A stretch of DNA of 30,393 nucleotides from Chalciporus piperatus (Eukaryota > Basidiomycota > Agaricomycetes > Boletales > Boletaceae), in the NCBI GenBank assembly GCA_038093975.1, contig JBBPTG010000273.1, positions 1-30,393 of the forward strand. Reading direction: 5' to 3'. The notes beneath the pieces were generated by a model, which saw only the letters and a list, made by a program, of their open reading frames with translations, was not told the DNA's origin and made no database searches. Made by a program: the position numbers and the translations under genes. This document shows, piece after piece, positions 1 to 25,818 of this stretch (the stretch's first letter is position 1; every line of letters starts with the position of its first letter).

Positions 1-342
1 GAGGGGTAATTTGATTTTATCAGCCCATCTCCGATCAACGAAGATAGCGTTAGCTCCTGAATCAAGAAGCGCTTCTGCTCGTGTGAAAGCAGAGGGAAGC
101 CGTTGCGAAGCGATGGAAGTAGATAGCTTCAATTCTCGATCCGTCGTGCGAATGAAACGTGGTCCTGGGTTTTCGGAAAGATATTGGATTATGGAAACGG
201 AATTAAGCACCTGACTAGAGTCCAGGCCAAGCTCATGATCAACATGAGACCCCGTTTGACTGTGTGAATAGTTTACAGATTTTCCTAACGAGTTAGTTGC
301 GGTCCGTTTGCCCAGATCATTCAGGCCGCTTTGCCTTTTCCC
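1..342 (-). CDS. pol: gypsy pol, N-terminal part (protease), truncated by window edge
   Basis: Minus-strand reading matches the start of the complete pol at 19498, including the aspartic protease region around the DSGA motif. Relative to that copy it has a 6-bp in-frame deletion near position 167 that removes two residues; no stop is seen. It is reached from gag by the same -1 frameshift heptamer, here at 336-342. The rest of pol lies outside the window. Confidence 0.8.
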
Positions 343-1527
343 TTCATTTCGATATCTTTCATATCGTAGAAGTAAGCCTTCATTTCGTCGAATGAACGGC
401 CTTCAAGAGTACTAGATTCGGTAGACAGTTCTCTCACCTGTCTCTTCCGAAGTTTGCAGGCACGTTTGTGTTCGCCTCGTGACCAACCACAGCCCTTGCA
501 TTTGGTACTAGGTACCGGACATTGTTGTTTCGGATGTCCCGGTTTCCCACAGTTCCAACAATTTCCTTGTTTCTTCTCTTTGGAATTGCTTGTGGTCGCC
601 TTTACGACAGATGATGCTTCTTCTTCTTCTTCCACGATTTCTCCTTCTTCGATTTCGGCAGAACCTATATCCATTGGGGCACCACGACCTGGCTGTGTGC
701 CTGTGTTGGTATATTTATATCGCGAGGTATCACCTGCGGTTCCTGTCTTGATCATGGAGATAAGCTGTTTCCTTCCTGCAAGAAGGCGTAACTCTTCGAC
801 ATATGTGTCATATTTGTCGAGTCGTCCTTTCTCCATCAAGATCCGATGTGTGATCTCTGGATCTGCGTTTAGCTCTAGGAGTTCGATGTGTCTCGCGTCA
901 TCCCAATCGTCCATAAGGCGATGAGTCTGGAACGTGGTAAGGAATTTCTCCATAGACATCTTGCCTTGTTTCAGATTCTTGATCTGGTTGCGGTGGTATT
1001 CCACTTCGTTACCCGAGCGGAATTGATCGGTGATTCGTTTATGGAACTCGGCGGAAGTATACGTGGTTCCATTCTCCAAGATGTCATGTGTCATGGCTCG
1101 TGAGAACGTTGCGGCGTCTCCTCCTGTCATCCGACTAAGGATAGCTCTGATCGCCGTCATTCCGGTTAGCACGGTGTTGTTTTCATCTATCCATGCTCGG
1201 ACTCTCGTCCACCATTCTTCGAACTTCCTTCCTCTAGATCCGTCGTAGTCTCCTGGATCTTTGACGATTTTGGATAGCTTAGGTCCGCTACTAAGGTCCG
1301 ACCGTAGGAGCTGGTATGGCGCCAGGCACTTGAATGGCTTGTACTTGCGCTTCAAGCTGCAAGACATTATTGTTTAGATTTTGATTTACTCTCTGAGCGT
1401 TGGTAAGCTGATCCGTCATTGTTTCTAACGCAAGTCTCAACTGCGTTCCAAGATCCCGTATGGACGCGTCACGATGTCCGAGAATGCCTGTTAAGGCAGC
1501 TGCTAAGTCTGGGGCGAGAACCGACAT
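321..1527 (-). pseudogene. gag: gypsy gag, frameshifted copy
   Basis: The start at 1527 (MSVLAPDLAAAL) and the stop at 321-323 correspond to the intact 399-residue Gag at 18314-19513. The two halves are in different frames. Near 1290 this copy has four extra bases (TAGT-like) just after the codons for PTVGP, which throws the capsid and zinc-knuckle part out of frame. The downstream part still encodes the capsid-like region, an acidic EEGEIVEEEEE stretch and two cysteine-rich motifs (CWNCGKPGHPKQQC and CKGCGWSRGEHKRAC). Apart from the frameshift, protein identity to the intact copy is very high, so the break is recent. Confidence 0.88.
336..342 (-). promoter_or_regulatory. -1 ribosomal frameshift heptamer GGGAAAA (second copy)
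   Basis: Minus strand reads G GGA AAA in gag phase, followed by the same 6-nt spacer and bulged stem as at 19492-19535. The whole signal is conserved between the two copies. Confidence 0.6.
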
Positions 1528-1570
1528 TCTTGATGCACTAGAATGGAAGGGATAAAACTAGATTTTTATT

Positions 1571-2308
1571 TCAGATCTCCTGAGATCCTTCAAGGGTTTC
1601 TCCTGATAACGAAGCAGGGGCGTCTCTTTGATAAGGTGGCGGTGGAATGCTTCTTCTGATGGAATGAGGCGCGGGATAGTACAGTTGCACTCCTGGTGCG
1701 TTTGTCTCTCTTAGTCCTCCTTCGTCTTCACTATCAGACTCTACTAATCCTGGTAATTCTTCGTCTTCTTCTAACTCTGCTTGTGATACAACAGGGGAAG
1801 GGGGAGGAGTAGGTAGTGCTACTGGACGATTCCTGTGAGATACGAGGATGTATGCGAAATCAAAGGTAACGCGAAGGTCGTCTGAGAGAATTACGTGGCC
1901 GAAGATGAGGTATGAAAGTAATAGGAAGGCCTGTAAGCTGTACTGGGCGAATTTTCCTAAGAGGGACGAGAGGCTTAGGGCGGCGAGTGCGGCGAGTAGG
2001 ACGCGGGGTTGATACTCTCTCCTTAATACGAGTACCGGCGTCCTCAGGGATACCTCTAAGTAGCCTGTCGCTTCGTCGGCGTTGACGTACCCGAGCGTCA
2101 ATGTTCTCTCGAATCGACTTCTCACCTGCCGGGGATATAAGCGTGTGATAGAGAGCGCGGCGGAAACTTTCCGTACGACCAGAGACTCCAATGGGGAATT
2201 GGTGTTGAAGAGCAAGAAGATCCTCGTCGATGGCTGTCCAATCAACGGGCTCCGCGAGCGGAGTTGGGGCTCTGGGGATGGAGGAGGCACGATAATATAA
2301 TTCTTCAA
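1571..2308 (-). CDS. pre-gag ORF B (second copy), overlapping ORF A in another frame, no ATG
   Basis: Open frame of about 245 codons, counterpart of ORF B at 17496-18251. It contains no methionine codon at all; the frame can only begin at a near-cognate codon (TTG at 2308, or ACG a few codons upstream), by frameshift or by splicing. It has a hydrophobic stretch (VLLAALAALSLSSLLG followed by FLLLSYLIFGHVIL) and then an acidic, proline-rich tail. Compared with the other copy it differs by a few substitutions and a single-codon indel in the acidic tail, so the frame is kept. Function unknown. Confidence 0.55.
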   Translation of the reverse strand: MKNYIIVPPPSPEPQLRSRSPLIGQPSTRIFLLFNTNSPLESLVVRKVSAALSITRLYPRQVRSRFERTLTLGYVNADEATGYLEVSLRTPVLVLRREYQPRVLLAALAALSLSSLLGKFAQYSLQAFLLLSYLIFGHVILSDDLRVTFDFAYILVSHRNRPVALPTPPPSPVVSQAELEEDEELPGLVESDSEDEGGLRETNAPGVQLYYPAPHSIRRSIPPPPYQRDAPASLSGETLEGSQEI

Positions 2309-2786
2309 CGCCGAAGGCGTCAGCTAGTATCTGCTGGGGGTTAGGCGGCGACGGTGCCCGGATAACCTCGATAGGCGGGAGTGATGGGTAACGACGATGG
2401 TCGATCTGGAGATCGGCGGGGTTAACAGTCGATACGTGACGTGGGTAAGGGGGAATTACCGGTTCTTCTAGCCAGTCAACGTAAAGGTCAGAGTAGTCAG
2501 GCCTTGTCGCGATTGGCACTGAGTACTCCTCGATGATCCTCCTTTGTTCTTCCTCAACTAGTGCTCGGGCCTGAGCGACTTCTTCCTGGATACGGGCGTT
2601 CTCTCGCTCAAGATCCGCGATGATGTTGGTGAAGCCTGGATATACTTCCACAGCGTTTCCGAGCTTCGCGATGACGTTAGCGAAGTCGGGGTTGGTCTCG
2701 ACGGCGGGGAGATCAAGTATCCCGTTCCACTGGATGGAAGGGACAGGGGACGCGGCGCGCGAAGATGCGGCGGGGTTGCTCGACAC
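1860..2786 (-). CDS. pre-gag ORF A (second copy), no ATG
   Basis: Open frame of about 308 codons that begins at GTG directly after an in-frame TAA, counterpart of ORF A at 16994-17959. No ATG codon lies within it. The N-terminal half has diverged strongly from the other copy, with several substitutions and a net 13-codon indel that keeps the frame, whereas the C-terminal half that overlaps ORF B is nearly identical. It holds a likely helical region with charged runs (DLERENARIQEEVAQARALV), a DYSDLYVDW motif and an Arg/Pro-rich C terminus. I recognise no family. Confidence 0.55.
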   Translation of the reverse strand: MSSNPAASSRAASPVPSIQWNGILDLPAVETNPDFANVIAKLGNAVEVYPGFTNIIADLERENARIQEEVAQARALVEEEQRRIIEEYSVPIATRPDYSDLYVDWLEEPVIPPYPRHVSTVNPADLQIDHRRYPSLPPIEVIRAPSPPNPQQILADAFGVEELYYRASSIPRAPTPLAEPVDWTAIDEDLLALQHQFPIGVSGRTESFRRALYHTLISPAGEKSIRENIDARVRQRRRSDRLLRGIPEDAGTRIKERVSTPRPTRRTRRPKPLVPLRKIRPVQLTGLPITFIPHLRPRNSLRRPSRYL

Positions 2787-2929
2787 TTATTCAAAAACAA
2801 GGTCAGCGATGACGAGGCGCGAACAAGCAGCGCGGTACCCACTAGTGATCAACGGTTGAAGTGGCGTACAAGAACACGTGTGGTAGCGACGAGACGCTAA
2901 GACAAAAGAAAATATTAGTCTTGTTCTAA

Positions 2930-3436
2930 TGAAACGACTCAACTCAACAAAGAGCTAAGACTCACAATAGACAATAGCGAGCCGATGAACTTGGCTGAGG
3001 TTCGATGAGGAAACTCCAGGAGAACAAGATTGGGGAGTCCAGTGCTTGTCGACCCGGGTTTATATACTATTGTCAATGTTTGTACATGTTGTGGCTAAAC
3101 CTTATCGTAGGTGACTGGGTATGACTCGTACTGACTACTAGCCAATGGCGTAACTAGCTCTACTGCGGAATGAGTAAGCGTGAGTCATATGATGAGTAAT
3201 GCTGACTGATGCTGACGAATGAGTGGTGAGTCATCAGTTAGTAAGCGAAGGTCTAGACCTAGCTTATGTAAGTAAGCGAAGGTCTAGACCTAGCTTATGT
3301 AAGTAAGTCACGTGATGCGATAAGATAAGATAACAAAAGAGAAAGTGAAACGACTAAGTTCATGAGACGAAGAGAAACCTAGTAAACGTAATGGAATGTA
3401 GGGATGATTAGGATAAGGAATGGAGCGTTCGTAACA
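2930..3436 (-). repeat. gypsy LTR (5' LTR of the minus-strand copy)
   Basis: On the minus strand it runs from TGTTACGAACG (starting at 3436) to GTTTCA (ending at 2930), 507 bp. It matches the 476-bp LTR at 16374-16849 except for point changes and an extra 31-bp tandem copy at 3241-3302. A TATA box and the predicted transcript start are conserved. Immediately inside lies the primer-binding-site-like AGAACAAGACT. Confidence 0.92.
3241..3302. repeat. 31-bp tandem duplication within the LTR
   Basis: Two exact 31-bp units (3241-3271 and 3272-3302), each containing the palindrome GGTCTAGACC. The other two gypsy LTRs in the window have a single unit, so this is a duplication private to this copy. 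It doubles a possible regulatory palindrome in U3. Confidence 0.9.
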
Positions 3437-3919
3437 CCATCCCTACGCATTGACACTGATTGCATCGGCCCATTCCTACGCATTGAGGCTCAACCCATTG
3501 GCCCATCCCTACACATTGAGGCTCAACCCATCGGCCCATCCCTACGCATTGACACTGATTGCATCGGCCCATTCCTACACATTGACACTGATTGCATCGG
3601 CCCATCCCTACACATTGACACTGATTGCATCGGCCCATTCCTACGCATTGAGGCTCAAACCATCGGCCCATCCCTACGCATTGAGCCTCAATGCATCGGC
3701 CCATCCCTACGCATTGAGCCTCAATGCATCGGCCCATCCCTACGCATTGAGGCTCAATGCATCGGCCCATCCCTACATTGAGCCTCAACCCATCGGCCCA
3801 TCCCTACGCATTGACACTGATTGCATCGGCCCATTCCTACGCATTGAGGCTCAACCCATTGGCCCATCCCTACACATTGAGGCTCAACCCATTGGCCCAT
3901 TCCTACACATTGAGGCTCA
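3437..3919. repeat. 33-bp minisatellite, about 15 units
   Basis: Tandem units of 33 bp built on CATTGA + (GGCTCAACC or CACTGATTG) + CATCGGCCCATCCCTACG. One unit near 3776 lacks 2 bp and the last is partial. Two middle-segment variants alternate. The block of the first three units recurs as units 12-14, suggesting a higher-order duplication. Because 33 is divisible by three, long open frames appear on both strands; they are artefacts. The left end abuts the LTR at 3436, so the gypsy element inserted in or at the edge of this array. Confidence 0.93.
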
Positions 3920-4222
3920 TCCCTATTCTCTATGGGCCGAACCCTGATGCAGGCAGGCCTGGGTGATTAGCACCAGTCGGCCAGGTCCTACCTCATGGAA
4001 CCTTTGTGTTGGCCATTCCCATTGCCAGGGCACAATGGTACATTGGCTGATCCCTACTCTACGTGTACATTCTATTACTAGCCGATCCCTAACCTAGGTG
4101 ATCATACACCAGCGGCCAATCGTTAGCCGGCCAGTAGAGCACGGCCTAATTGGTGATCAGCTGGCCCTGGATCAGGGTACAAATGGACTACACTATGTGA
4201 GTGAAGCTAGTGCTTCTGCAAA

Positions 4223-15450: not shown

Positions 15451-16373
15451 TTCGTTCGTTGACTTCCTGCTCGCGCTTAAGGCGGTCAATGCATTTAGCG
15501 GCTGCCGGTGTGTACTTTCCGTCGTTGTGTGCTCTGAGTTCGTCGGGGGTGAGAGGGTGATCAAAGTCGACGATGTACGGGCGAAGAGGCTCAGGGATGG
15601 GGATTGGAGGGAGTAGCAGGTGGTCTGGGCCAAGAATTCCCCGGGATGGGTGGTCGGCTGGGTTGTGTTCGCTGGGGACGAACTTTGCGACGATGCTCGA
15701 GCCAAGAGTGGAGCGGCGAGCAAGGAACGCATGTATGCGTTTGAAAACGTCGTTGACGGCGTTGTTCTGGTGCCGTCCGATTCTCCAACTTTCCACGACG
15801 CTAGTGTTGTCGCAGTAGACGATGAGGTTGTGGTGTTGGGGAAAAAGGTTTGCGAGGGCTGCGATGAGGAGTTCGAGGCCGACTGCCTCTGCCCACGCGA
15901 TATCGCGCTTGCCGTTGTGGGTTTGCCAGCCTGGGATGAGTCGCCAGGCTCGCCATCTTTCGTCGATGACGACTCCGATGCCCACGCTAGAGCTAGCATC
16001 AGAGAACGCGTTTAGGTCATGGTAGGTGGGCAGAGGGATGATGGCGTGTGATGCTGCGCCTGTGGACAAAGTTTGTTGCCACCACTCGAGGTCAGGCTTG
16101 ATGGTTTTTTTTGGGCGATGGGGCATGAAAGGTTTTTTCTCACAGACGGCGAGGAACCGTTCGAGGCCGGTGAGGTAAGCTCTGCCTTCCGGAATGATCG
16201 CGGCTGTGTGTAGCAGCTTACCATACAATTTTTGTACGTCCTCGAGGATGTGTGTGCGGCGCTGGTTCCATTCGCTTATGGCCTTCAGGTATTTGTCGCG
16301 CTTGTCTGCGTTGAGAGAGACGGTGCGCGATTCGAGGTCCCACAGAAAACCGATGTAAACGGTCGAGCGGCCG
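15392..16373 (-). CDS. DIRS reverse transcriptase C terminus and RNase H, truncated
   Basis: Minus-strand frame open from the gypsy junction. It begins in the thumb region of reverse transcriptase (YIGFLWDLESRTVSLNADKR), runs through LYGKLLHTAAIIPEGRAYL and then an RNase-H-like domain with LNAFSDASSSVGIGVVI, AEAVGLELL, VYCDNTSVV and HNPADHPSRG, giving the D-E-D-D acidic residues. The catalytic part of the reverse transcriptase (palm) is missing because the gypsy LTR replaces it at 16373. The end of the frame overlaps the recombinase frame. Confidence 0.82.
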
Positions 16374-16545
16374 TGTTACGAACGCTCCATTCCTTATCCT
16401 AATCGTCCCTACATTCCATTACGCTTACTAGGTTTCTCTTCGTTTCTTGGACTTAGTCGTTTCACTTTCTCTTTTGTTATCTTATCTTATCGTATCACGT
16501 GACTTACTTACATAAGCTAGGTCTAGACCTTCGCTTACTAACTGA

Positions 16546-16657
16546 TGACTCACCGCTCACTCGTCAGCATCAGTCAGCATTACTCATCATATGACTCACG
16601 CTTACTCATTCCGCAGTAGAGCTAGTTACGCTATTGGCTAGTAGTCAGTATGAGTCA
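16546..16657 (+). promoter_or_regulatory. three Gcn4/AP-1-like sites in the LTR U3
   Basis: TGACTCA at 16546-16552 and 16592-16598, TGAGTCA at 16651-16657. These are perfect matches to the bZIP consensus TGASTCA and are also visible in the other LTRs. With the upstream CACGTG they suggest induction by starvation or stress regulators, by inference only. Confidence 0.5.
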
Positions 16658-16712
16658 TACCCAGTCACCTACGATAAGGTTTAGCCACAACATGTACAAA
16701 CATTGACAATAG

Positions 16713-16720
16713 TATATAAA
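16713..16720 (+). promoter_or_regulatory. TATA box of the gypsy LTR
   Basis: TATATAAA, 34 bp upstream of the sequence CAGTCTTGTTCT that pairs with the primer-binding site. It is conserved at the matching place in the 3' LTR and in the minus-strand LTR. Confidence 0.7.
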
Positions 16721-16851
16721 CCTGGGTCGACAAGCACTGGACTCCCCAGTCTTGTTCTCCTGGAGTTTCCTCATCGAACCTCAGCCAAGTACATCGGCTC
16801 GCTATTGTCTAGTGTGAGTCTTAACTCTTAGTTGAGTTGAGTTGTTTCATT

Positions 16852-16863
16852 AGAACAAGACTG
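16852..16863 (+). promoter_or_regulatory. primer-binding site, self-priming type
   Basis: AGAACAAGACTG begins 2 nt after the LTR end, the usual spacing. It is the exact reverse complement of CAGTCTTGTTCT at 16747-16758, which lies where the mRNA should start. Family knowledge: Tf1-type chromoviruses prime reverse transcription by folding back the mRNA 5' end onto such a site. I see no resemblance to a tRNA 3' end. Confidence 0.65.
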
Positions 16864-16993
16864 ATATTTTCTTTTGTCTTAGCGTCTCGTCGCTACCACA
16901 CGTGTTCTTGTACGCCACTTCAACCGATTGATCACTAGTGGGTACCGCGCTGCTTGTACGCGCCTCGTCATCGCTGACTTTATTTTTGAATAA

Positions 16994-17959
16994 GTGTCGA
17001 GCAACCCCGCCGCATCTCAGCGCGCCGCGTCCCCTGTACCTTCCATCCAGTGGAACGGTATACTTGATCTCCCCGCCGTCGAGAACAACCTCGACTTCAC
17101 CAGCGTCATCAGAAACCTCGAAAGAGCTGCGGAGGTCTTCCCCGGCTTCACTAGTATCATCGACGACCTCGAGCGAGAGAACGCTCGTGTCCAGGAAGAC
17201 TACGCTCGTGCTCAGGCGTTTCACGCCGAGAGAGAAAGGGAGATCATCGAGAAGTACTCAGCGCCGATAGTCCCAGAGCCCGACTATTCGGATCTCTACG
17301 TAGATTGGAAAGAACCTCCGGTAATTCCTTCCTACCCATACCAGTTACCTTCAGAGGTTTACATTCACCCTCTCGGTACCCTTCGGTTACCTCATCATCC
17401 CGCCAATCTCCAGATCGGCACTCGTCGACTTCCGTCGCTCCCTCCCATCGAGGCTATTCGGGCACCGTTGCCGCCCAACCCCCAGCAGATACTAGCCGAC
17501 GCCTTCGGCGTTGAAGAATTATTCTACCGTGCCTCCTCCATTCCCAGAGCCCCAACCCCGCTCGCGGAGCCCGTTGATTGGACAGCCATCGACGAGGATC
17601 TTCTTGCTCTTCAACACCAATTCCCCATTGGAGTCTCTGGTCGTACGGAAAGTTTCCGCCGCGCTCTCTATCACACGCTTATATCCCTGGCAGGTGAGAA
17701 GTCGATTCGAGAGAACATTGACGATCGGGTACGTCAACGCCGACGAAGCGACAGGCTACTTAGAGGTATCCCTGAGAACGCCGGTACTCGTATTAAGGAG
17801 AGAGTACCAACCCCGCGTCCTACTCGCCGCACTCGCCGCCCTAAGCCTCTCGTCCCTCTTAGGAAGATTCGCCCAGTTCAGCTTACAGGCCTTCCTACTA
17901 CTTTCATACCTCATCTTCGGCCACGTAATTCTCTCAGACGACCTTCGCGTTACCTTTGA
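16994..17959 (+). CDS. pre-gag ORF A, no ATG, unknown function
   Basis: An open frame of 321 codons that starts with GTG immediately after an in-frame TAA and contains no ATG. The first 30 residues (SSNPAASQRAASPVPSIQWN onwards) are nearly identical in the other copy, so translation must begin at or before this point. It could start at a near-cognate codon or be joined by splicing: CTGAC, a T-rich tract and AATAAG end exactly at 16994, like an intron 3' end. Middle: charged helix (DLERENARVQEDYARAQAF); then DYSDLYVDW, a proline-rich part, and an Arg-rich C terminus (RPTRRTRRPKPLVPLRKIRP). The last 460 bp overlap ORF B. A nucleic-acid-binding or Gag-like accessory role is possible but unproven. 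Confidence 0.6.
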   Translation: MSSNPAASQRAASPVPSIQWNGILDLPAVENNLDFTSVIRNLERAAEVFPGFTSIIDDLERENARVQEDYARAQAFHAEREREIIEKYSAPIVPEPDYSDLYVDWKEPPVIPSYPYQLPSEVYIHPLGTLRLPHHPANLQIGTRRLPSLPPIEAIRAPLPPNPQQILADAFGVEELFYRASSIPRAPTPLAEPVDWTAIDEDLLALQHQFPIGVSGRTESFRRALYHTLISLAGEKSIRENIDDRVRQRRRSDRLLRGIPENAGTRIKERVPTPRPTRRTRRPKPLVPLRKIRPVQLTGLPTTFIPHLRPRNSLRRPSRYL

Positions 17960-18251
17960 CTTCGCATACATCCTCGTATCTCACAGGAATCGTCCAGTAG
18001 CACTACCTACTCCTCCCCCTTCCCCTGTTGTATCACAAGCAGAGTTAGAAGTAGACGAAGAATCGGTACCAGGATTAGTAGAGTCTGATAGTGAAGACGA
18101 AGGAGGACTAAGAGAAACAAACGTACCAGGAGTGCAGCTGTACTATCCCGCGCCTCATTCCATCAGAAGAAGCATTCCACCGCCACCTTACCAGAGAAAC
18201 GCCCCTGCTTCGTTATCAGGAGAAACCCTTGAAGGATCTCAGGAGATCTGA
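17496..18251 (+). CDS. pre-gag ORF B, overlapping ORF A in the +1 frame, hydrophobic segment
   Basis: Opens after a TAG at 17493-17495 and runs to 18251 without any ATG; near-cognate candidates are ACG at 17499 and TTG at 17511. From the TTG it is 246 residues. It has a hydrophobic region of about 40 residues (VLLAALAALSLSSLLG ... FLLLSYLIFGHVIL) likely to span a membrane once or twice, then an acidic, proline-rich tail (LVESDSEDEGG, RRSIPPPPYQR). PPPPY and PTPPPSP could bind WW or SH3-like domains. In the part not shared with ORF A the two copies differ by few residues and one codon indel, so the frame is constrained. Function unknown. Confidence 0.6.
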   Translation, partial: PTPSALKNYSTVPPPFPEPQPRSRSPLIGQPSTRIFLLFNTNSPLESLVVRKVSAALSITRLYPWQVRSRFERTLTIGYVNADEATGYLEVSLRTPVLVLRREYQPRVLLAALAALSLSSLLGRFAQFSLQAFLLLSYLIFGHVILSDDLRVTFDFAYILVSHRNRPVALPTPPPSPVVSQAELEVDEESVPGLVESDSEDEGGLRETNVPGVQLYYPAPHSIRRSIPPPPYQRNAPASLSGETLEGSQEI

Positions 18252-18313
18252 AATAATAATAAAAAAAAAAAAAAGAAATCTAGTTTTACTCCTTTCATTC
18301 TAGTGCATCAAGA

Positions 18314-19513
18314 ATGTCGGTTCTCGCCCCAGACTTAGCAGCGGCCTTAACAGGCATTCTCGGACATCGTGACGCGTCCATACGGGATCTTGGAACGCAG
18401 TTGAGACTCGCGTTAGAAACAATGACGGATCAGCTTACCAACGCTCAGAGGATAAATCAAAATTTAAGCAATAACGTCTTGCAGCTTGAAGCGCAAGTAC
18501 AAGCCATTCAAGTGCCTGGTGCAATACCAGCTCCTACGGTCGGACCTAGCGGACCTAAGCTATCCAAAATCGTCAAAGATCCAGGAGACTATGACGGATC
18601 TAGAGGAAGGAAGTTCGAAGAATGGTGGACAAGAGTCCGTGCATGGATAGATGAAAACAACACCGTATTAACCGGAATGACGGCGATCAGAGCTATCCTT
18701 AGTCGAATGACAGGAGGAGACACCGCTACTTTCTCACGAGCCATGACACATGACATCTTGGAAAATGGAACCACGTATACTTCCGCCGAGTTCCATAAAC
18801 GAATCACCGATCAATTCCGCTCGGGTAACGAAGTGGAATATCACCGCAACCAGATCAAGAATCTGAAACAAGGCAAGATGTCTATGGAGAAATTCCTTAC
18901 CACGTTTCAGACTCACCGCCTTATGGACGATTGGGATGATCCAAGACACATCGAACTCCTAGAGCTAAACGCAGATCCAGAAATCACACATCGGATCTTA
19001 ATGGAGAAAGGACGACTCGACAAATATGACACATACGTCGAAGAACTACGCCTCCTTGCAGGAAGGAAACAGCTTATCTCCATGATCAAGACAGGAACCG
19101 CAGGTGATACCCCGCGATATAAATATACCAACACAGGCACACAACCAGGTCGTGGTGCCCCAATGGATATAGGTTCCGCCGAAATCGAAGAAGGAGAAAT
19201 CGTGGAAGAAGAAGAAGCACCAGCTGTCATAAAGGCGGCCACAAGCAATTCCAAAGAAAAGAAGCAAGGAAATTGCTGGAACTGTGGGAAACTGGGACAC
19301 CCGAAACAGCAGTGTCCGGTACCTAGTACCAAATGCAAGAATTGTGGTTGGTCCCGAGGCGAACACAAACGTGCCTGCAAACTTCAGAAGAGACAGGTGA
19401 GAGAACTGTCTACCGAATCTAGCACTCTTGAAGGCCGTTCATTCGACGAAATGAAGGCTTACTTCTACGATATGAAAGATATCGAAATGAAGGGAAAAGG
19501 CAAAGCGGCCTGA
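18314..19513 (+). CDS. gag: Gag polyprotein, gypsy
   Basis: 399 residues. The start ATG at 18314 is the first ATG downstream of the LTR promoter. Residues 1-75 form a coiled-coil-like N terminus (LRLALETMTDQLTNAQRI), followed by the retrotransposon capsid region (KFEEWWTRVRAWIDENN, FRSGNEVEYHRNQIKNLKQG, MSMEKFLTTFQTHRLM). An acidic linker (EIEEGEIVEEEE) precedes a CCHC zinc knuckle CWNCGKLGHPKQQC (near 19273) and a second, atypical cysteine motif CKNCGWSRGEHKRAC. Gag packages the RNA into particles. A pyrimidine tract with CTAG sits 10 bp before the ATG and could act as a splice acceptor. Pol is reached by -1 frameshift just before the stop. Confidence 0.93.
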   Translation: MSVLAPDLAAALTGILGHRDASIRDLGTQLRLALETMTDQLTNAQRINQNLSNNVLQLEAQVQAIQVPGAIPAPTVGPSGPKLSKIVKDPGDYDGSRGRKFEEWWTRVRAWIDENNTVLTGMTAIRAILSRMTGGDTATFSRAMTHDILENGTTYTSAEFHKRITDQFRSGNEVEYHRNQIKNLKQGKMSMEKFLTTFQTHRLMDDWDDPRHIELLELNADPEITHRILMEKGRLDKYDTYVEELRLLAGRKQLISMIKTGTAGDTPRYKYTNTGTQPGRGAPMDIGSAEIEEGEIVEEEEAPAVIKAATSNSKEKKQGNCWNCGKLGHPKQQCPVPSTKCKNCGWSRGEHKRACKLQKRQVRELSTESSTLEGRSFDEMKAYFYDMKDIEMKGKGKAA

Positions 19514-19535
19514 ATGATCTGGGCAAACGGACCGC
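19492..19535 (+). promoter_or_regulatory. -1 programmed frameshift signal between gag and pol
   Basis: Heptamer GGGAAAA (19492-19498) stands in the X XXY YYZ phase of gag (aaG GGA AAA). After a 6-nt spacer, GCGGCC (19505-19510) pairs with GGACCGC (19529-19535, one bulged A), and the gag stop lies in the loop. The pol frame is open across this point in exactly the -1 frame. Both copies keep the site. Confidence 0.72.
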
Positions 19536-22500
19536 AACTAACTCGTTAGGAAAATCTGTAAACTATTCACACAGTCAAACGGGGTCTCATGTTGATCATG
19601 AGCTTGGCCTGGACTCTAGTCAGGTGCTTAATTCCGTTTCCATAATCCGATATCTTTCCGAAAACCCACTGGCAGGACCACGTTTCATTCGCACAACAGA
19701 CCGAGAATTGAAACTATCTACTTCCATCGCTTCGCAACGACTCCCTTCTGCTTTCACACGAGCAGAGGCACTCTTTGATTCAGGAGCTAACGCTATCTTC
19801 GTTGATCGGAGATGGGCTGATAAAATCAGATTACCCCTCGTGCAACTCAGACATCCACTTACGGTATACAACGTGGACGGAACCCATAACTCCGCTGGAC
19901 AGATAACACACTGTGCGGAAATCATTATCCATTTCAACGGACATCGTGAGAAGGCCATTGCGGAAGTCACTGACCTCGGAAAGAATCAGGTGATACTAGG
20001 TTACGCATGGTTGAAGCAACACAATCCGGAGATAGATTGGAACAAAGGAACGGTCCACATGACACGTTGTCCTTGGTCTTGCTCCGTCTTACGAGATAAA
20101 CCACCATTCGCACGCCAACTTGATGATGAAGAACGAAACTCTCTTCGTCATATCAACGCCGCAAAGAGGGAGGTACCTGAACCAAAAATGGAAAAGACTC
20201 CGGAAGAACTTGTTCCAAAAGAATATCACAAGTATATTCACCTGTTCAAGAAAAAGGAATCTGAACGCATGCCAACCCGTAAGTCGTGGGATCATGCAAT
20301 TGACTTGAAAGACACCTACAAGCCGAAAAAGGGCCGTCTTATCCCACTCTCTGTCACGGAACAAGAAGAAGTCAGCGCATTCATTGATGATCAGCTCAAG
20401 AAAGGATACATTCGTCCTTCCAAATCTGAGCAAACTTCTCCCGTGTTCTTCGTTCCTAAGAAAGATGGCAAGAAACGCATGGTTCAAGATTACCGTTATC
20501 TGAATGAACATACGGTGAAAAACAACTACCCGCTACCCCTCATTTCCCAACTGGTTGATAAACTGAAAGGCGCAAAACTGTTTACCAAAATGGACTTGCG
20601 CTGGGGATACAACAACATCCGCATCAAAGAAGGCGATGAATCTAAAGCCGCATTCATGTGCTTCCGTGGCGCCTTCGAACCCTTGGTCATGTACTTCGGA
20701 TTATGCAATTCTCCTGCGACATTTCAAACCATGATGAACGACATCTTCTCGGATATGGAAGACGCCGTTGTTGTCTACATTGATGACATCATGATCTTTA
20801 CCAAATCCGACGACCCTGCTGTCCATGCCAAAATAGTCAGAGAAGTTCTTCGTCGCCTAGAAGAGAATGACCTCTTCGTCAAACCAGAGAAATGTGTCTT
20901 CCATACCAAAGAAGTAGAATTCTTGGGAATGACAATTACTCCCGAGGGAATCAGGATGGATGACGATAAGGTCAAGGCAATCACCGAATGGCCAACTCCG
21001 ACAAATGTCAGAGGTGTCAGAAGCTTCCTTGGGTTAGCAAACTTCTATCGCCGCTTCATTCAGGATTACGCCCAAGTGGCTAGACCCTTGAATGACCTTA
21101 CCAAGAAGGATACGAAATTCGCATGGGAAGATGCGCAGAAGAACGCTTTCAACATGTTGAAACAGAAGTTCATCACCGCTCCCATACTCGCCTTCCCAGA
21201 CAATGACAAACGCTTCCGTCTAGAATCGGATGCATCTAATTATGCCACGGGTGCTGTTCTATCTATAGAACAAGGAGACAAATGGCATCCCGTCGCATTC
21301 TCTTCCCATTCCATGTCACCGGAAGAACGCAACTATCCTATCGCGGATAAAGAGATGCTAAGCGTGATCAGAAGTCTAGAACAGTGGAGACATTATCTGG
21401 AAGGCTCCAAGCACGAGTTTGAAATTTGGAACGATCACGCGAACCTTCAGTTCTTCATGACTCGGCAAGATCTAAATCGTCGCCAAGCACGTTGGTCTCA
21501 ATATCTTAGCCGATTCAATTTCAAATGGTTACACAAGGCAGGTTCCCAAATGGGGAAAGCCGATGCCTTATCAAGAAGAGAAGATCATGCAATCGGTATC
21601 GAAACAGATAACAAAGCTGTCCTGGTGATACCTCCGGACAGAATAGCTGCCACGTCAACGGTTCAACTCTCAACCGATTCCGATTTGATCAAGAACAAAA
21701 TCAGAAAAGCAACCTTCAAAATACGTGAGACAGAAGTCATGAAACTCTGTAAGGAACACGGCATTTGTGAAGAGTCTGATGGAATTCTGATTGACAAGAA
21801 AGGAAAACTATACGTTCCTGAAGAAGAAGATCTCCGCATGGAGATTATTCGACTTCATCACGACACGCCCGTTGCCGGACATCCCGGATATGAAAAGACG
21901 ATTGAACTGCTACAGCGCAGTTACGCCTGGCCAGGAATGGCTACGCTCGTAAAAGAATACGTTTCACGCTGTGACAGATGTGCACGTTTCAAAGGGATAA
22001 ACTATGCTCCTTCTGGAAAACTCCGCCCCCTTGAAGTTCCGGATCTTCCCTGGGAACATATCTCTGCAGATTTCACTACCGACCTGCCACTCTCGAATGG
22101 ATTCGATTCTATTCTTGTCGTAGTCGACAGATTCTCCAAAGAAGTCGAATTCATTCCCTGCAACAAGACAGTCACCGCTCTCGACACCGCCCGTCTTTAC
22201 CTAACCCATGTATGGAAACATCATGGACTTCCTAAAACCATCATATCGGACCGAGGTCCGCAATTCGCATCTCAAGTGATGAAAGACATATGCAAACGTC
22301 TTGGCATTACGCCCAAACTCTCCACCGCCTTTCATCCCCAAACTGATGGACAAACCGAACGTATGAATCGAGATCTACAACAATATCTCCGTCTATTCAC
22401 GTCAGAAAAACAAGAAGAATGGACTGATTGGTTGCCAATTGCGCAATTCTCATACAACTCGAAGAAGCAAGCTTCTACATCCAAGGCACCTTTCAACGTC

Positions 22501-23232
22501 ACGCACACATATTCCCCGAGAATGGGTATAGAGAATTACACTTCTAAAGCACCCGCTGCTACGGACTTCGTTGACACGCTTGCCAACACGTTGAAAGAAA
22601 CCAAGGATAACATAATAGAAGCTCAGAAGCGTATGAAGGCGCAAGCTGACAAACACCGCTCTGAATCGCCATCTTACGAGATTGGTCAGAAAGTCTGGCT
22701 ATCTACAGCTAATCTCCGCCTGGCGCAGAGATCTAAGAAACTTTCCCCACGATGGTTGGGTCCTTACGAAATCACAACCCTGATTGGTCGGAACGCACTA
22801 CGTTTGAAGCTTCCGCGTACCATGAAAATTCACCCCGTCGTTAATGTTTCACGTGTCAAACCATATAAGGACAGGTTACGGAAGCAAACCGTTGACAAGC
22901 CTGGGCCTGTGATGGTGACAGAAGACAGAGATGATGAATATGAGGTGGATTACATCGTTGATTCTCGTTTACAGGGAAAAACCCTGAAATACCTCGTGCA
23001 CTGGAAAGGCTATGCGGAATCTGATCGGACATGGGAACCAAAATCGAATCTGAAGAATGCACAGGATGCAATAAGGGAATTCAACAAGATACACCCGTCC
23101 GCTCCACGATTCCTTCGCATGTCACGGAGTCTATTCGAGTCACTATTCCAGCCGTATGACAACTTAACGAGTCAGGTGGATGATGGACAAATCAACTGGT
23201 TAAATACCGTGCCGGATACCGAAAAGGTATAA
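19498..23232 (+). CDS. pol: Pol polyprotein with chromodomain, expressed by -1 frameshift
   Basis: An open frame of about 1244 codons from the slip site. It has no ATG near its start, consistent with expression as Gag-Pol. Domains in order: aspartic protease (ALFDSGANAIFVD, near 19775); reverse transcriptase (VFFVPKKDGKKRMVQDYRYL; catalytic VVVYIDDIMIF near 20776); RNase H (RLESDASNYATGAVLS; KADALSRRED); integrase with HHCC zinc finger (HHDTPVAGHP ... CDRC, near 21855-21980) and D, D, E residues in SADFTTDL, ISDRGPQFAS and DGQTERMNRD; then a C-terminal chromodomain (EVDYIVDSRLQGKTLKYLVH, WKGYAESDRTWEP, near 22940-23090). The chromodomain places it among chromoviruses, whose integrases are guided to modified chromatin. 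All catalytic residues are present. Confidence 0.95.
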   Translation, partial: RQSGLNDLGKRTATNSLGKSVNYSHSQTGSHVDHELGLDSSQVLNSVSIIRYLSENPLAGPRFIRTTDRELKLSTSIASQRLPSAFTRAEALFDSGANAIFVDRRWADKIRLPLVQLRHPLTVYNVDGTHNSAGQITHCAEIIIHFNGHREKAIAEVTDLGKNQVILGYAWLKQHNPEIDWNKGTVHMTRCPWSCSVLRDKPPFARQLDDEERNSLRHINAAKREVPEPKMEKTPEELVPKEYHKYIHLFKKKESERMPTRKSWDHAIDLKDTYKPKKGRLIPLSVTEQEEVSAFIDDQLKKGYIRPSKSEQTSPVFFVPKKDGKKRMVQDYRYLNEHTVKNNYPLPLISQLVDKLKGAKLFTKMDLRWGYNNIRIKEGDESKAAFMCFRGAFEPLVMYFGLCNSPATFQTMMNDIFSDMEDAVVVYIDDIMIFTKSDDPAVHAKIVREVLRRLEENDLFVKPEKCVFHTKEVEFLGMTITPEGIRMDDDKVKAITEWPTPTNVRGVRSFLGLANFYRRFIQDYAQVARPLNDLTKKDTKFAWEDAQKNAFNMLKQKFITAPILAFPDNDKRFRLESDASNYATGAVLSIEQGDKWHPVAFSSHSMSPEERNYPIADKEMLSVIRSLEQWRHYLEGSKHEFEIWNDHANLQFFMTRQDLNRRQARWSQYLSRFNFKWLHKAGSQMGKADALSRREDHAIGIETDNKAVLVIPPDRIAATSTVQLSTDSDLIKNKIRKATFKIRETEVMKLCKEHGICEESDGILIDKKGKLYVPEEEDLRMEIIRLHHDTPVAGHPGYEKTIELLQRSYAWPGMATLVKEYVSRCDRCARFKGINYAPSGKLRPLEVPDLPWEHISADFTTDLPLSNGFDSILVVVDRFSKEVEFIPCNKTVTALDTARLYLTHVWKHHGLPKTIISDRGPQFASQVMKDICKRLGITPKLSTAFHPQTDGQTERMNRDLQQYLRLFTSEKQEEWTDWLPIAQFSYNSKKQASTSKAPFNVTHTYSPRMGIENYTSKAPAATDFVDTLANTLKETKDNIIEAQKRMKAQADKHRSESPSYEIGQKVWLSTANLRLAQRSKKLSPRWLGPYEITTLIGRNALRLKLPRTMKIHPVVNVSRVKPYKDRLRKQTVDKPGPVMVTEDRDDEYEVDYIVDSRLQGKTLKYLVHWKGYAESDRTWEPKSNLKNAQDAIREFNKIHPSAPRFLRMSRSLFESLFQPYDNLTSQVDDGQINWLNTVPDTEKV

Positions 23233-23292
23233 GAGACTGATGTTTGACGGTCTTCACTCTCACGGTTTCTCTTCCACAAACCACCATCACCA

Positions 23293-23859
23293 ATGGATCT
23301 GAACGACGTCTACGCTTGGGAGAGTGTCCTCCGCGACATCTTCATTCGAAACTTTACTCGGGATCGAGGCAACTTCGTCCTCTCCCTCCTCTTTGTAATC
23401 TTCGTCATCTGCAACGGTTGGATCCTCCGCATGCTCATCCCCTCCCTCCTCGCTTTCATCGCCATCGTCGTCATCACCATCGCCATTCAGTACCTCATGT
23501 TCGCTCGGATGATCGTGACTAGACGGTCCACATCTATTGAGGTTAACTGGGACTGGACGACAAGGTGGATGAAGATCGTCGTATGGCACCCGGATCTGAG
23601 CAAGTGGGACAACGTAGTAGAGGTACAGCAAGAGAATCCTGATCAGCAGGAATGGCCCACAAATTGGCCTGATCTCGCTCAACCTCCTATTCCCGACCCT
23701 GCACTCGTAGGTGCTCCCCACCCTATTCCTGTCGACGAGAACGATGGTAACCCATTCGAACCACCAGTAACCTGGACAAACAACAACCTTCAGGTCGCTG
23801 CTGCTCCGCCAGCAGATGGAGTACCGTGGATGAATCAAGGTCCACTCGTCGAAGTCTGA
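23293..23859 (+). CDS. 3' ORF with two membrane helices, unknown, env-position
   Basis: 188 residues starting with ATG 60 bp after the pol stop. Residues 28-49 (VLSLLFVIFVICNGWILRML) and about 50-72 (PSLLAFIAIVVITIAIQYLM) form two strongly hydrophobic segments. The rest is soluble, with tryptophans (VNWDWTTRWMKIVVWHPD) and a proline-rich acidic tail. No signal peptide of the usual kind and no cleavage site are visible, so it is not a classical envelope protein, but its position after pol is that of env-like ORFs. It ends 34 bp before the LTR. The minus strand is open over the same stretch, which I regard as a shadow. Its expression route is unknown (subgenomic RNA or re-initiation). Confidence 0.65.
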   Translation: MDLNDVYAWESVLRDIFIRNFTRDRGNFVLSLLFVIFVICNGWILRMLIPSLLAFIAIVVITIAIQYLMFARMIVTRRSTSIEVNWDWTTRWMKIVVWHPDLSKWDNVVEVQQENPDQQEWPTNWPDLAQPPIPDPALVGAPHPIPVDENDGNPFEPPVTWTNNNLQVAAAPPADGVPWMNQGPLVEV

Positions 23860-23880
23860 TCATCTAGGAATACGATCCAT

Positions 23881-23890
23881 AGAGAGGGGG
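23881..23890 (+). promoter_or_regulatory. polypurine tract
   Basis: AGAGAGGGGG, three bases before the 3' LTR, where plus-strand DNA synthesis would be primed. Confidence 0.8.
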
Positions 23891-23893
23891 TAG

Positions 23894-24370
23894 TGTTACG
23901 AACGCTCCATTTCCTTAACCTAATCATTCCTACATTCCATTACGCTTACTAGGTTTCTCTTCGTTTCGTGGACTTAGTCGTTTCACTTTCTCTTTTGTTA
24001 TCTTATCTTATCGCATCACGTGACTTACTTACATAAGCTAGGTCTAGACCTTCGCTTACTAACTGATGACTCACCGCTCACTCGTCAGCATCAGTCAGCA
24101 TTACTCACCATATGACTCACGCTTACTCATTCCGCAGTAGAGCTAGTTACGCCATTGGCTAGTAGTCAGTATGAGTCATACCCAGTCACCTACGATAAGG
24201 TTTAGCCACAACATGTACAAACATTGACAATAGTATATAAACCCGGGTCGACAAGCACTGGACTCCCCAGTCTTGTTCTCCTGGAGTTTCCTCATCGAAC
24301 CTCAGCCAAGTACATCGGCTCGCTATTGTCTAGTGTGAGTCTTAGCTCTTAGTTGAGTTGAGTCGTTTCA
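23894..24370 (+). repeat. gypsy 3' LTR
   Basis: 477 bp, TGTTACG..GTTTCA, matching the 5' LTR with about a dozen differences. TATA box and downstream start region are conserved. It is directly joined to copia coding sequence at 24371, and its last base forms the A of an in-frame ATG. Confidence 0.95.
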
Positions 24371-25818
24371 TGTTCCGCATCAAACGCGATCAGAACGGCA
24401 TGATCGAACAATACAAGGTCCGGATTGTTGCTCGAGGTTTTACCCAGCGCGAAGGAGTTGACTATCAGGAAGTATTCGCTCCCGTAGCAAACCTCGATTC
24501 CGTCCGGACCATCATTGCTCTTGCCGCGAAGCATAACTTGGAACTGGATCAAATGGACGTTTCCACCGCATATCTCAACGGAGAGCTCGAGGAGGAATTG
24601 TACCTCCTACCTCCGGACGGTGTTCCCATTCCTTCCGGATGCTGTTGGAGACTCAGACGCTCCCTATATGGCCTTAAACAAGCCGGACGTACTTGGAACA
24701 AAATCCTGGACAAAAAGCTTGGAGAACTCGGATTCACCAGACTCGACACAGAGACCTGCCTTTACGTCCTTCGGAAAGACGGACAGGTCTGTTTCCTTGT
24801 TGTGTATGTCGACGACCTTCTCCTTGCAGCCACCTCCAGGGGTTTCATCAACTCCTGTAAGGAGGCCCTTTCCGCTGCATTCAAAATGCACAACCTTGGA
24901 GAAGCCAAGTACATCCTGGGAATCGAAATCCGTCGCGACCGGAAACTCCGCACCATCTCCTTGAGTCAATCCCAGTATGCTCGCACCGTTCTAGAGCGAA
25001 CTGGAATGTCCAACTCTGCTCCCGTCTGGACTCCTATGGTCCATGGCATACATCTCTCTGCGACAGATCCTGAGGACAACACCACGATTCCAGAACTCTG
25101 GATTGAAGGGAAGCTTGTTTCTTACCTTACCGTCATCGGGTCCCTCATGTATCTCATGCTTGGAACACGTCCGGATATCGTGTACACTGTTGGACACCTC
25201 GCCCATTACAGTTCCGCACCCAAGATGTGCCATTGGGAAGCCGCAAAGCGTGTCCTCCGTTACATTCGAGCAACTTCAGACATGGAACTTCGGTACGACG
25301 GAACTGATGTGTCCTTGGATCAGGACTTCCATGGATACTCTGACGCTGGATGGTCGCAGGACCCAGACAACTCCCGTTCCACTTCCGGATTCCTGTTTCT
25401 CAGCAATCGCGGTGCCATTTCCTGGTCCAGCAAACAGCAGAGCATGGTCGCACTGTCTACCACGGAATCAGAGTACATCGGACTCAGTCTCGCTGGACAG
25501 CATCTCGCTTGGCTCCGGACCTTCTTTGCAGAGATTGGACATCCTCAGAAGGGCCCAACAACGCTCAACTGCGATAACCAGGCCGCCATCATCCTTTCCC
25601 GTGATCCTCAGTTCCGAGCTCGAACCAAGCATATCAAACGGAAGTACCACTTCGTCCGGGACGACTTGGTTGCGACCGGAGAAGCCGTTATCCAATATGT
25701 TCCTACTGGGGACATGGTTGCTGACATCCTTACCAAGCCTCTTGTCAGGGAGCAACACTGGAAGTTCGTTCGTGGGATGGGATTACGATTGCGCTCGAGT
25801 GGGAGTGTCAAAATATAG
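24370..25818 (+). CDS. copia reverse transcriptase-RNase H, 5' truncated
   Basis: Ty1/copia Pol C-terminal half, 482 residues from an ATG that spans the LTR junction. The start matches the conserved FRIKRDxxGxIEQYK region; the first catalytic aspartate is in QMDVSTAYLNGELEEELY, and the catalytic pair in VCFLVVYVDDLLLAATS. RNase H shows GYSDAGWSQD, ALSTTESEYIGLS, LNCDNQAAI and HIKRKYHFVRD, and it ends with ADILTKPL before a short tail. The stop at 25816-25818 lies inside the LTR that begins at 25806. Gag, protease and integrase are missing, cut off by the gypsy LTR. The remaining frame is intact. Confidence 0.92.
   Translation: MFRIKRDQNGMIEQYKVRIVARGFTQREGVDYQEVFAPVANLDSVRTIIALAAKHNLELDQMDVSTAYLNGELEEELYLLPPDGVPIPSGCCWRLRRSLYGLKQAGRTWNKILDKKLGELGFTRLDTETCLYVLRKDGQVCFLVVYVDDLLLAATSRGFINSCKEALSAAFKMHNLGEAKYILGIEIRRDRKLRTISLSQSQYARTVLERTGMSNSAPVWTPMVHGIHLSATDPEDNTTIPELWIEGKLVSYLTVIGSLMYLMLGTRPDIVYTVGHLAHYSSAPKMCHWEAAKRVLRYIRATSDMELRYDGTDVSLDQDFHGYSDAGWSQDPDNSRSTSGFLFLSNRGAISWSSKQQSMVALSTTESEYIGLSLAGQHLAWLRTFFAEIGHPQKGPTTLNCDNQAAIILSRDPQFRARTKHIKRKYHFVRDDLVATGEAVIQYVPTGDMVADILTKPLVREQHWKFVRGMGLRLRSSGSVKI
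25797..25805 (+). promoter_or_regulatory. copia polypurine tract
   Basis: Purine-rich stretch ending AGTGGGAG directly before the LTR terminus TGTCAAA. Confidence 0.55.

Follow-up and report, generated by a model that had tools for sequence, protein, structure and literature searches.

We analysed a 30,393-nucleotide (nt) stretch of the genome of the bolete Chalciporus piperatus (contig JBBPTG010000273.1, hereafter the window), part of a 35.5-Mb genome in 484 contigs. Positions 16374-24370 of the window are occupied by a Ty3/gypsy chromovirus on the forward strand, with long terminal repeats (LTRs), gag, pol carrying a C-terminal chromodomain and a further frame after pol. The limits of the 5′ LTR (16374..16849, TGTTACG...GTTTCA) were read from the sequence, and it matches its repeat partner, the 3′ LTR (23894-24370), at 98%. 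The first ATG that the unspliced RNA would offer is that of gag (18314..19513), and pol (19432..23232) encodes protease, reverse transcriptase, RNase H, integrase and chromodomain. The order of domains in Pol, RVT_1 (2.3e-34), RNase H (2.9e-33), rve (3.1e-13) and Chromo (8.5e-16), is that of a chromovirus. A second copy of the element lies on the minus strand at about 1-3437 and is cut by the left end of the window. The region considered here is the leader between the predicted RNA start and gag (16747..18313, forward strand), which contains no ATG, holds two long open reading frames (ORFs) and would acquire a start codon through the removal of a short intron.

Depletion of ATG in the leader

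The initial annotation, made from the letters of the window, had described a leader with no ATG in any frame and about 25 CAT, a second copy that is likewise free of ATG, and a deficit far from chance. Each of these statements held on recounting. The leader at 16747-18313 (1567 nt) contains 0 ATG and 27 CAT; going upstream, the nearest ATG (16692) lies in the LTR, ahead of the TATA box, and going downstream the first is the gag ATG at 18314. The leader of the second copy (1528-3030, minus strand) contains 0 ATG and 25 CAT. Shuffles that preserve dinucleotide content gave an expectation of 9.6 ATGs for the first leader and 11.5 for the second, and a sequence without ATG was obtained in 0 of 2000 shuffles for either. 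Among the 64 trinucleotides, ATG is the most depleted in the first leader. Single quarters of this leader are weakly depleted, with zero ATG in 1-9% of shuffles, so that the strength of the depletion lies in the leader as a whole.

At least 42 matching copies occur in the same genome (40 of 350 first-look candidates were scored). Sixty copies with long matches were extracted, and one of them, L037, was set aside and left out of later counts for this family (family 1), as its leader carries an insertion with 9 ATGs; 19 partial or diverged loci, out of 39 added at a later stage, were left unaligned. No leader ATG is present in 47 of the 59 aligned copies. When eight cut-short or rearranged copies are left out, 40 of the 51 complete leaders lack ATG and 11 have between 1 and 8. 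The copy with the most ATGs (8), L060, is 75% identical and broken in both leader frames, and it was excluded from allele and splice-site counts. Across the resulting 58 copies, 12 positions have an ATG allele confined to one copy, 1 position has one shared by three copies and no position has one shared by five or more; for all triplets, alleles confined to one copy number 808, those carried by two to four copies 474 and those carried by at least five 2367 (Fisher P 1.4e-7, positions being treated as independent). At 11 of the 12 single-copy positions the other copies carry ACG, which is the likely source of these ATGs. ACG occupies 46 positions, and ATG occurs alongside it 11 times, each time in one copy, whereas ACA at the same positions is confined to one copy in 7 cases and shared by several in 8 (P 0.007). 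ATGs that are harmful only in active elements are expected to appear in dead copies and not to be inherited, and this is the pattern seen. ATGs are purged from transmitted copies by selection, not lost by drift. Selection of this kind had been proposed in the initial annotation, which named leader ATGs in other family members as a finding that would count against it. Some members do carry them, but 12 of the 13 positions concerned are confined to one copy (L060 and L037 left out); the depletion extends over the whole leader and all frames, and ATG alleles hardly spread.

Predicted RNA start and candidate leader intron

A TATATAA box (16713..16719, forward strand) stands ahead of the predicted RNA start. 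The 12 nt at 16747..16758 (CAGTCTTGTTCT), the putative RNA 5′ end and self-primer, are the reverse complement of 16852..16863 (AGAACAAGACTG), the putative primer-binding site just past the LTR. An A at position 16863 shortens the match to 11 nt in 31 of 38 copies, so that family 1 shows the complementary primer-binding site of the self-primed class over 11-12 nt. A 12-nt complement is also found in L062, which belongs to a third family (gag 54% identical). A second family (family 2) comprises about 35 copies with a gag about 50% identical and a leader without detectable similarity to that of family 1. Both sides of the pair differ there from family 1 and still pair, by eye, over 11 nt (AGCTTAGTTCA / TGAACTAAGCT); the TATATAA box is also present in the eight family 2 copies first read. 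The self-priming pair would place the 5′ end of the genomic RNA at about 16747, upstream of the whole leader.

The frame of the first leader ORF (ORF1) opens right after a stop codon, with TAA followed by GTG TCG AGC. Immediately upstream, the sequence reads ACTA/GTGGGT...GCTGAC...AATAAG/TGTCG (slashes mark predicted splice boundaries), which delimits a candidate intron of 57 nt at 16938..16994 on the forward strand, bearing the hallmarks of small introns in fungi. Removal of 16938-16994 joins A16937 to T16995 and creates an ATG, the joined flanks reading ATG TCG AGC with A at -3. The donor GTGGGT is invariant in 57 of 57 copies, and A16937, CTGAC and AG/TG are invariant in 38 of 38, against ten variable positions elsewhere in the intron. 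Of the donor-like sites of the form GTRNGT, no more than two are conserved in 56 or more of the 57 copies, one at 16814 and the other at 16938. The former opens a weaker candidate intron (16814..16882, forward strand, GTGAGT...TTAG), which would remove the primer-binding site. Its GTGAGT is present in 56 of 57 copies and is replaced by GTAAGT in L062, but the whole stretch is conserved, and by eye family 2 has no such donor. The leader intron and the first ORF1 codons also recur at about 80% identity in two other loci (L075, 1006-1140; L076, 744-959), where the rest of the leader is unmatched.

The same layout is found in the two other families. L062 carries CACAA/GTAGGT...CTGAC...AACAG/TGTCC, a candidate intron of 53 nt whose splice sites are better than those of family 1. 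Two insertions interrupt the L062 leader; every ATG located between its predicted RNA start and gag falls within them (limits set by eye). For family 2, the leaders of 13 of the approximately 35 copies were read, two 600-nt pieces (L087, L088) being left out of leader counts. The layout CGCAA/GTGCGT...CGTAG/TG is present in 12 of these 13, with an intron of 50 nt (51 in one). Among the eight copies first read, seven have no ATG from the RNA start to gag; zero ATG was obtained in 12 and 23 of 2000 shuffles for the two copies tested. The eighth, L083, is also the one copy of the 13 from which the intron is missing: exactly the GT-to-AG stretch is absent, its placement is unambiguous, and the junction CGCAATGTACTTCC holds the predicted start codon, which is the sole leader ATG of L083. 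The simplest reading is that L083 derives from a spliced RNA that was reverse transcribed and integrated. No clear second intron-less copy of family 2 emerged from a pattern search, which gave 7 places against 7 for the backward control and in which only the L083 place was followed. Judged from sequence, a start codon completed at a predicted splice junction is found in three families and in an intron-less copy, and the beginning of ORF1 is most likely explained by splicing of the 57-nt intron.

Leader reading frames and other features of the element

The two long frames reported in the initial annotation are present in the leader. ORF1 (16995..17959, forward strand; 321 aa, the first base of its predicted ATG being A16937) has a predicted helical N part and an arginine-rich C part. 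ORF2 (17592..18251, forward strand; about 219 aa from a candidate ACG start at 17592) has a hydrophobic middle and overlaps ORF1 in another frame. From stop to stop, the frames extend over 16994-17959 and 17496-18251, respectively, the latter corresponding to 251 aa. Crude allele counts, not based on a tree, were used to compare non-silent with silent changes (N/S). Relative to expectation, N/S in 39 copies was about 0.32 where ORF1 runs alone, 0.25 where ORF2 runs alone and 0.53-0.65 for the two frames where they overlap. In the same copies, stop alleles numbered 0 among 138 in the overlap and, outside it, 3 of 228 in ORF1 and 0 of 109 in ORF2. These counts indicate that ORF1 and ORF2 are coding and under purifying selection. 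ORF1 reaches at least 302 aa in 44 of the 51 complete leaders and ORF2 at least 249 aa in 48. Genome-wide, 46 of 88 ORF1 matches span the frame without a stop, as do 51 of 81 ORF2 matches for the stop-to-stop frame, most of the others being fragments in both cases. The leader frame of family 2 has 258 codons; 25 of its 38 genomic matches span it without a stop and 1 of 38 has an internal stop.

The codon signature of ORF2 starts at about 17589-17600, with an N:S of 22:8 before and 17:16 after, and a frequent double change at 17603-17604 alters the ORF1 product but leaves that of ORF2 unchanged. ACG 17592 stands at the onset of this signature, is kept in 54 of 56 copies and is probably the start of ORF2. 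Three other origins were considered and rejected. An intron inside ORF1 (CAG/GTGAGA, 17694) would use a GT that is present in 44 of 56 copies and lies downstream of the onset of the signature. A start at the stop-to-stop limit, 17496, would add a frame that is unconstrained until about 17589. The CTT codons at 17600/17603, considered for a +1 frameshift, vary among copies, though a shift elsewhere nearby may occur.

No homologue of ORF1 emerged outside this genome: a comparison with 5.8 billion proteins gave no match among 3597 candidates, and Pfam returned no domain in ORF1 or ORF2. AlphaFold models from two-sequence alignments had a mean predicted local distance difference test score of 51 for ORF1 and 36 for ORF2, too low for use; long helices at ORF1 residues 49-87 and 218-255 are possible in the model. 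One might guess from its arginine-rich stretch that ORF1 is an RNA-binding regulator.

In the second copy, ORF1 lies at 1860-2786 and ORF2 runs from 1571 upward, within the minus-strand leader (1528..3030). Its gag (321-1571, minus strand) is frame-shifted near residue 78, the match in one frame covering residues 79-399, and its leader frames are intact despite this frameshift. A 33-bp minisatellite of about 12 units is located at 3404-3962, at the outer LTR edge of this copy. The intact copy has no matching target-site duplication (GGCCG at 16369-16373, TGTTC at 24371-24375), and by eye it is flanked by a tyrosine-recombinase-type element on one side and a copia element on the other, which suggests recombination or misassembly. 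The frame after pol (23248-23859), in the position of env, encodes a small membrane-like protein (MDLNDVY...); 44 of its 81 genomic matches cover residues 2-202 with no internal stop. Versions of this protein with 30-42% identity can be made out in C19 and, in family 2, 6-8 kb downstream of several leaders, so that it seems to be common to all three families. Searches of viral contigs with Pol and ORF2 gave no match, and a search with Gag gave two proteins with 43% and 41% identity over 55-58% of the length of Gag.

A proposed splicing switch before gag and its alternatives

We propose that splicing would decide whether a single transcript yields Gag or a leader protein. RNA would start at about 16747. 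When the intron is kept, no AUG would be met for 1.57 kb and ribosomes could scan to the gag AUG at 18314; this unspliced RNA would also be the self-primed genome. When the intron is removed, A16937 and TG16995 would form an AUG with A at -3, ORF1 (321 aa) would be made and ribosomes would largely be kept from gag. On the AUG-free RNA, occasional initiation at ACG 17592 would provide ORF2. We assign this model as a whole, with the leader-intron switch, scanning to gag and ORF2 initiation at ACG, a probability of about 0.72.

The main alternatives differ in how gag or ORF1 would be reached. If leaky scanning alone were at work, ORF1 would be translated from GTG 16994 on the unspliced RNA and the intron signals would be a coincidence. 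An ATG-free leader with two open frames is indeed what rice tungro bacilliform virus (RTBV) displays (PMC5902531, excerpt), but GTG 16994 directly follows a stop and has T at -3, three families have the arrangement A/GT...AG/TG, and precisely this stretch is missing from L083; we consider this reading improbable. The same low standing is given to a gag mRNA from which the leader is spliced out between a donor at 16814 and an acceptor at 18303. Conservation speaks for it: 56 of 57 copies have GTGAGT at 16814, and in TTCTAG at 18303 the AG is present in 51 of 51. However, purging of ATGs down to 18313 would then be needless for gag, and the family 2 bases before gag contain, by eye, no good acceptor. 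Marginally less credible is a gag that depends on an RNA start or on ribosome entry just upstream, through an internal promoter or an internal ribosome entry site (IRES), for which the A-rich tract at about 18251-18278 in the window might serve: neither requires an ATG-free leader, and the self-priming pair points to about 16747 as the 5′ end of the genomic RNA. With ATGs purged as far as the gag start, scanning is a better fit than entry at an IRES, shunting or constant removal of the leader by splicing. Finally, ATG could be rare through base composition, coding constraint or chance, in line with the rarity of methionine and the weak depletion of single quarters. This is contradicted by a deficit that covers the leader as a whole in every frame and holds against dinucleotide shuffles, and by single-copy ATGs that arise and hardly ever spread; it is by far the least probable alternative.

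Several observations nevertheless weigh against the model. An ATG at 17529 (GTG to ATG, ORF2 frame) is common to L013, L021 and L027; their flanks differ, so one ATG-bearing lineage did move. In family 2, the more diverged copies L089-L091, whose leaders are complete, carry 3, 1 and 1 leader ATGs where other copies have ACG, and two of these positions are common to two copies. The family 1 acceptor is AAG, unlike the usual YAG, and 55 of 57 copies also retain GTACGC at 16910, another donor-like sequence. A genome-wide search for an intron-less family 1 junction found none that was exact, the pattern with at most 2 mismatches giving 46 matches, left uninspected, against 10 for the backward control. 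In a larger set of copies ORF1 is only mildly restrained in the overlap (N:S 20:11 and 68:44), where two single-copy ORF1 stop alleles also occur. ACG 17592 has a poor context (T at -3) and is also constrained by ORF1. Profile comparison of family 1 ORF1 with the leader ORF of family 2, with shallow profiles, detected no similarity.

The suggestion of the initial annotation that ribosomes scan to gag is supported by selection against ATG over the whole leader and in all frames. It had further likened the leader to pararetroviral leaky scanning with a non-AUG first start. The ATG-free stretch does recall RTBV, but a non-AUG first start finds no support as the main device: ORF1 most likely receives its AUG from splicing, and ACG 17592 is the best guess for ORF2 alone. 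RTBV uses leaky scanning, its first ORF starting at a non-AUG codon (AUU), and it shares with the present elements long leader ORFs without internal AUG (PMC5902531, excerpt). The differences are that the first ORF here most likely has a splice-made AUG, that the AUG-free stretch measures 1.57 kb and that the host is a fungus.

Springer-type errantiviruses encode Env after pol. In this subclade of insect errantiviruses, the env exon is spliced to an AU dinucleotide to give a junction AUG (PMC12992720, excerpt). The product there is Env, whereas here it would be a leader protein encoded upstream of gag, without Pfam hit, and the intron is 50-57 nt long. In Tf1, the post-LTR sequence is derived from the LTR and is complementary to the RNA 5′ end. 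The present elements resemble Tf1/sushi-type self-primed chromoviruses in this complementarity; neither a leader ORF nor a leader intron is known to us from Tf1. Self-priming is described in the literature (PMC2864245, excerpt). In the barley copia element BARE, splicing divides tasks between RNA pools (PMC3735527, excerpt); it favours Gag there, whereas here it would work against Gag. L083 is comparable with the spliced integrated retrotransposed elements (SpIREs) of human L1, genomic copies of spliced element RNA that are generally dead ends (PMC5860796, excerpt), with the difference that L1 is a non-LTR element. A survey of fungal Gypsy elements found one or two ORFs in most of the full-length ones, and a figure legend refers to further ORFs whose function is unknown (PMC2864245, excerpt). 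A paper on caprine arthritis-encephalitis virus concerns a novel fused ORF and not a splice-made start (PMC2291067). Among open-licence papers searched with narrow phrases, we found no report of a splice-made start codon before gag in a fungal retrotransposon.

If the proposed switch is correct, a 50-57 nt intron would offer a compact route to two first-AUG proteins from one LTR transcript, and splicing-controlled accessory genes, a retroviral trait, would exist in fungal Ty3/gypsy elements. With a start codon that is absent from the DNA, such genes would be hidden from annotation. Dozens of ATG-free leaders of about 1.5 kb, with decaying copies as control, would also constitute a natural experiment on long-range scanning. 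A wider proposal, which we advance tentatively and at slightly less than even odds, is that fungal chromoviruses include retrovirus-like 'complex' elements, in which a leader-intron switch completes the AUG for accessory proteins encoded in overlapping frames before gag, while other AUGs are purged and the unspliced RNA stays open for Gag. The leader protein of such elements could control splicing or export in a Rev-like loop.
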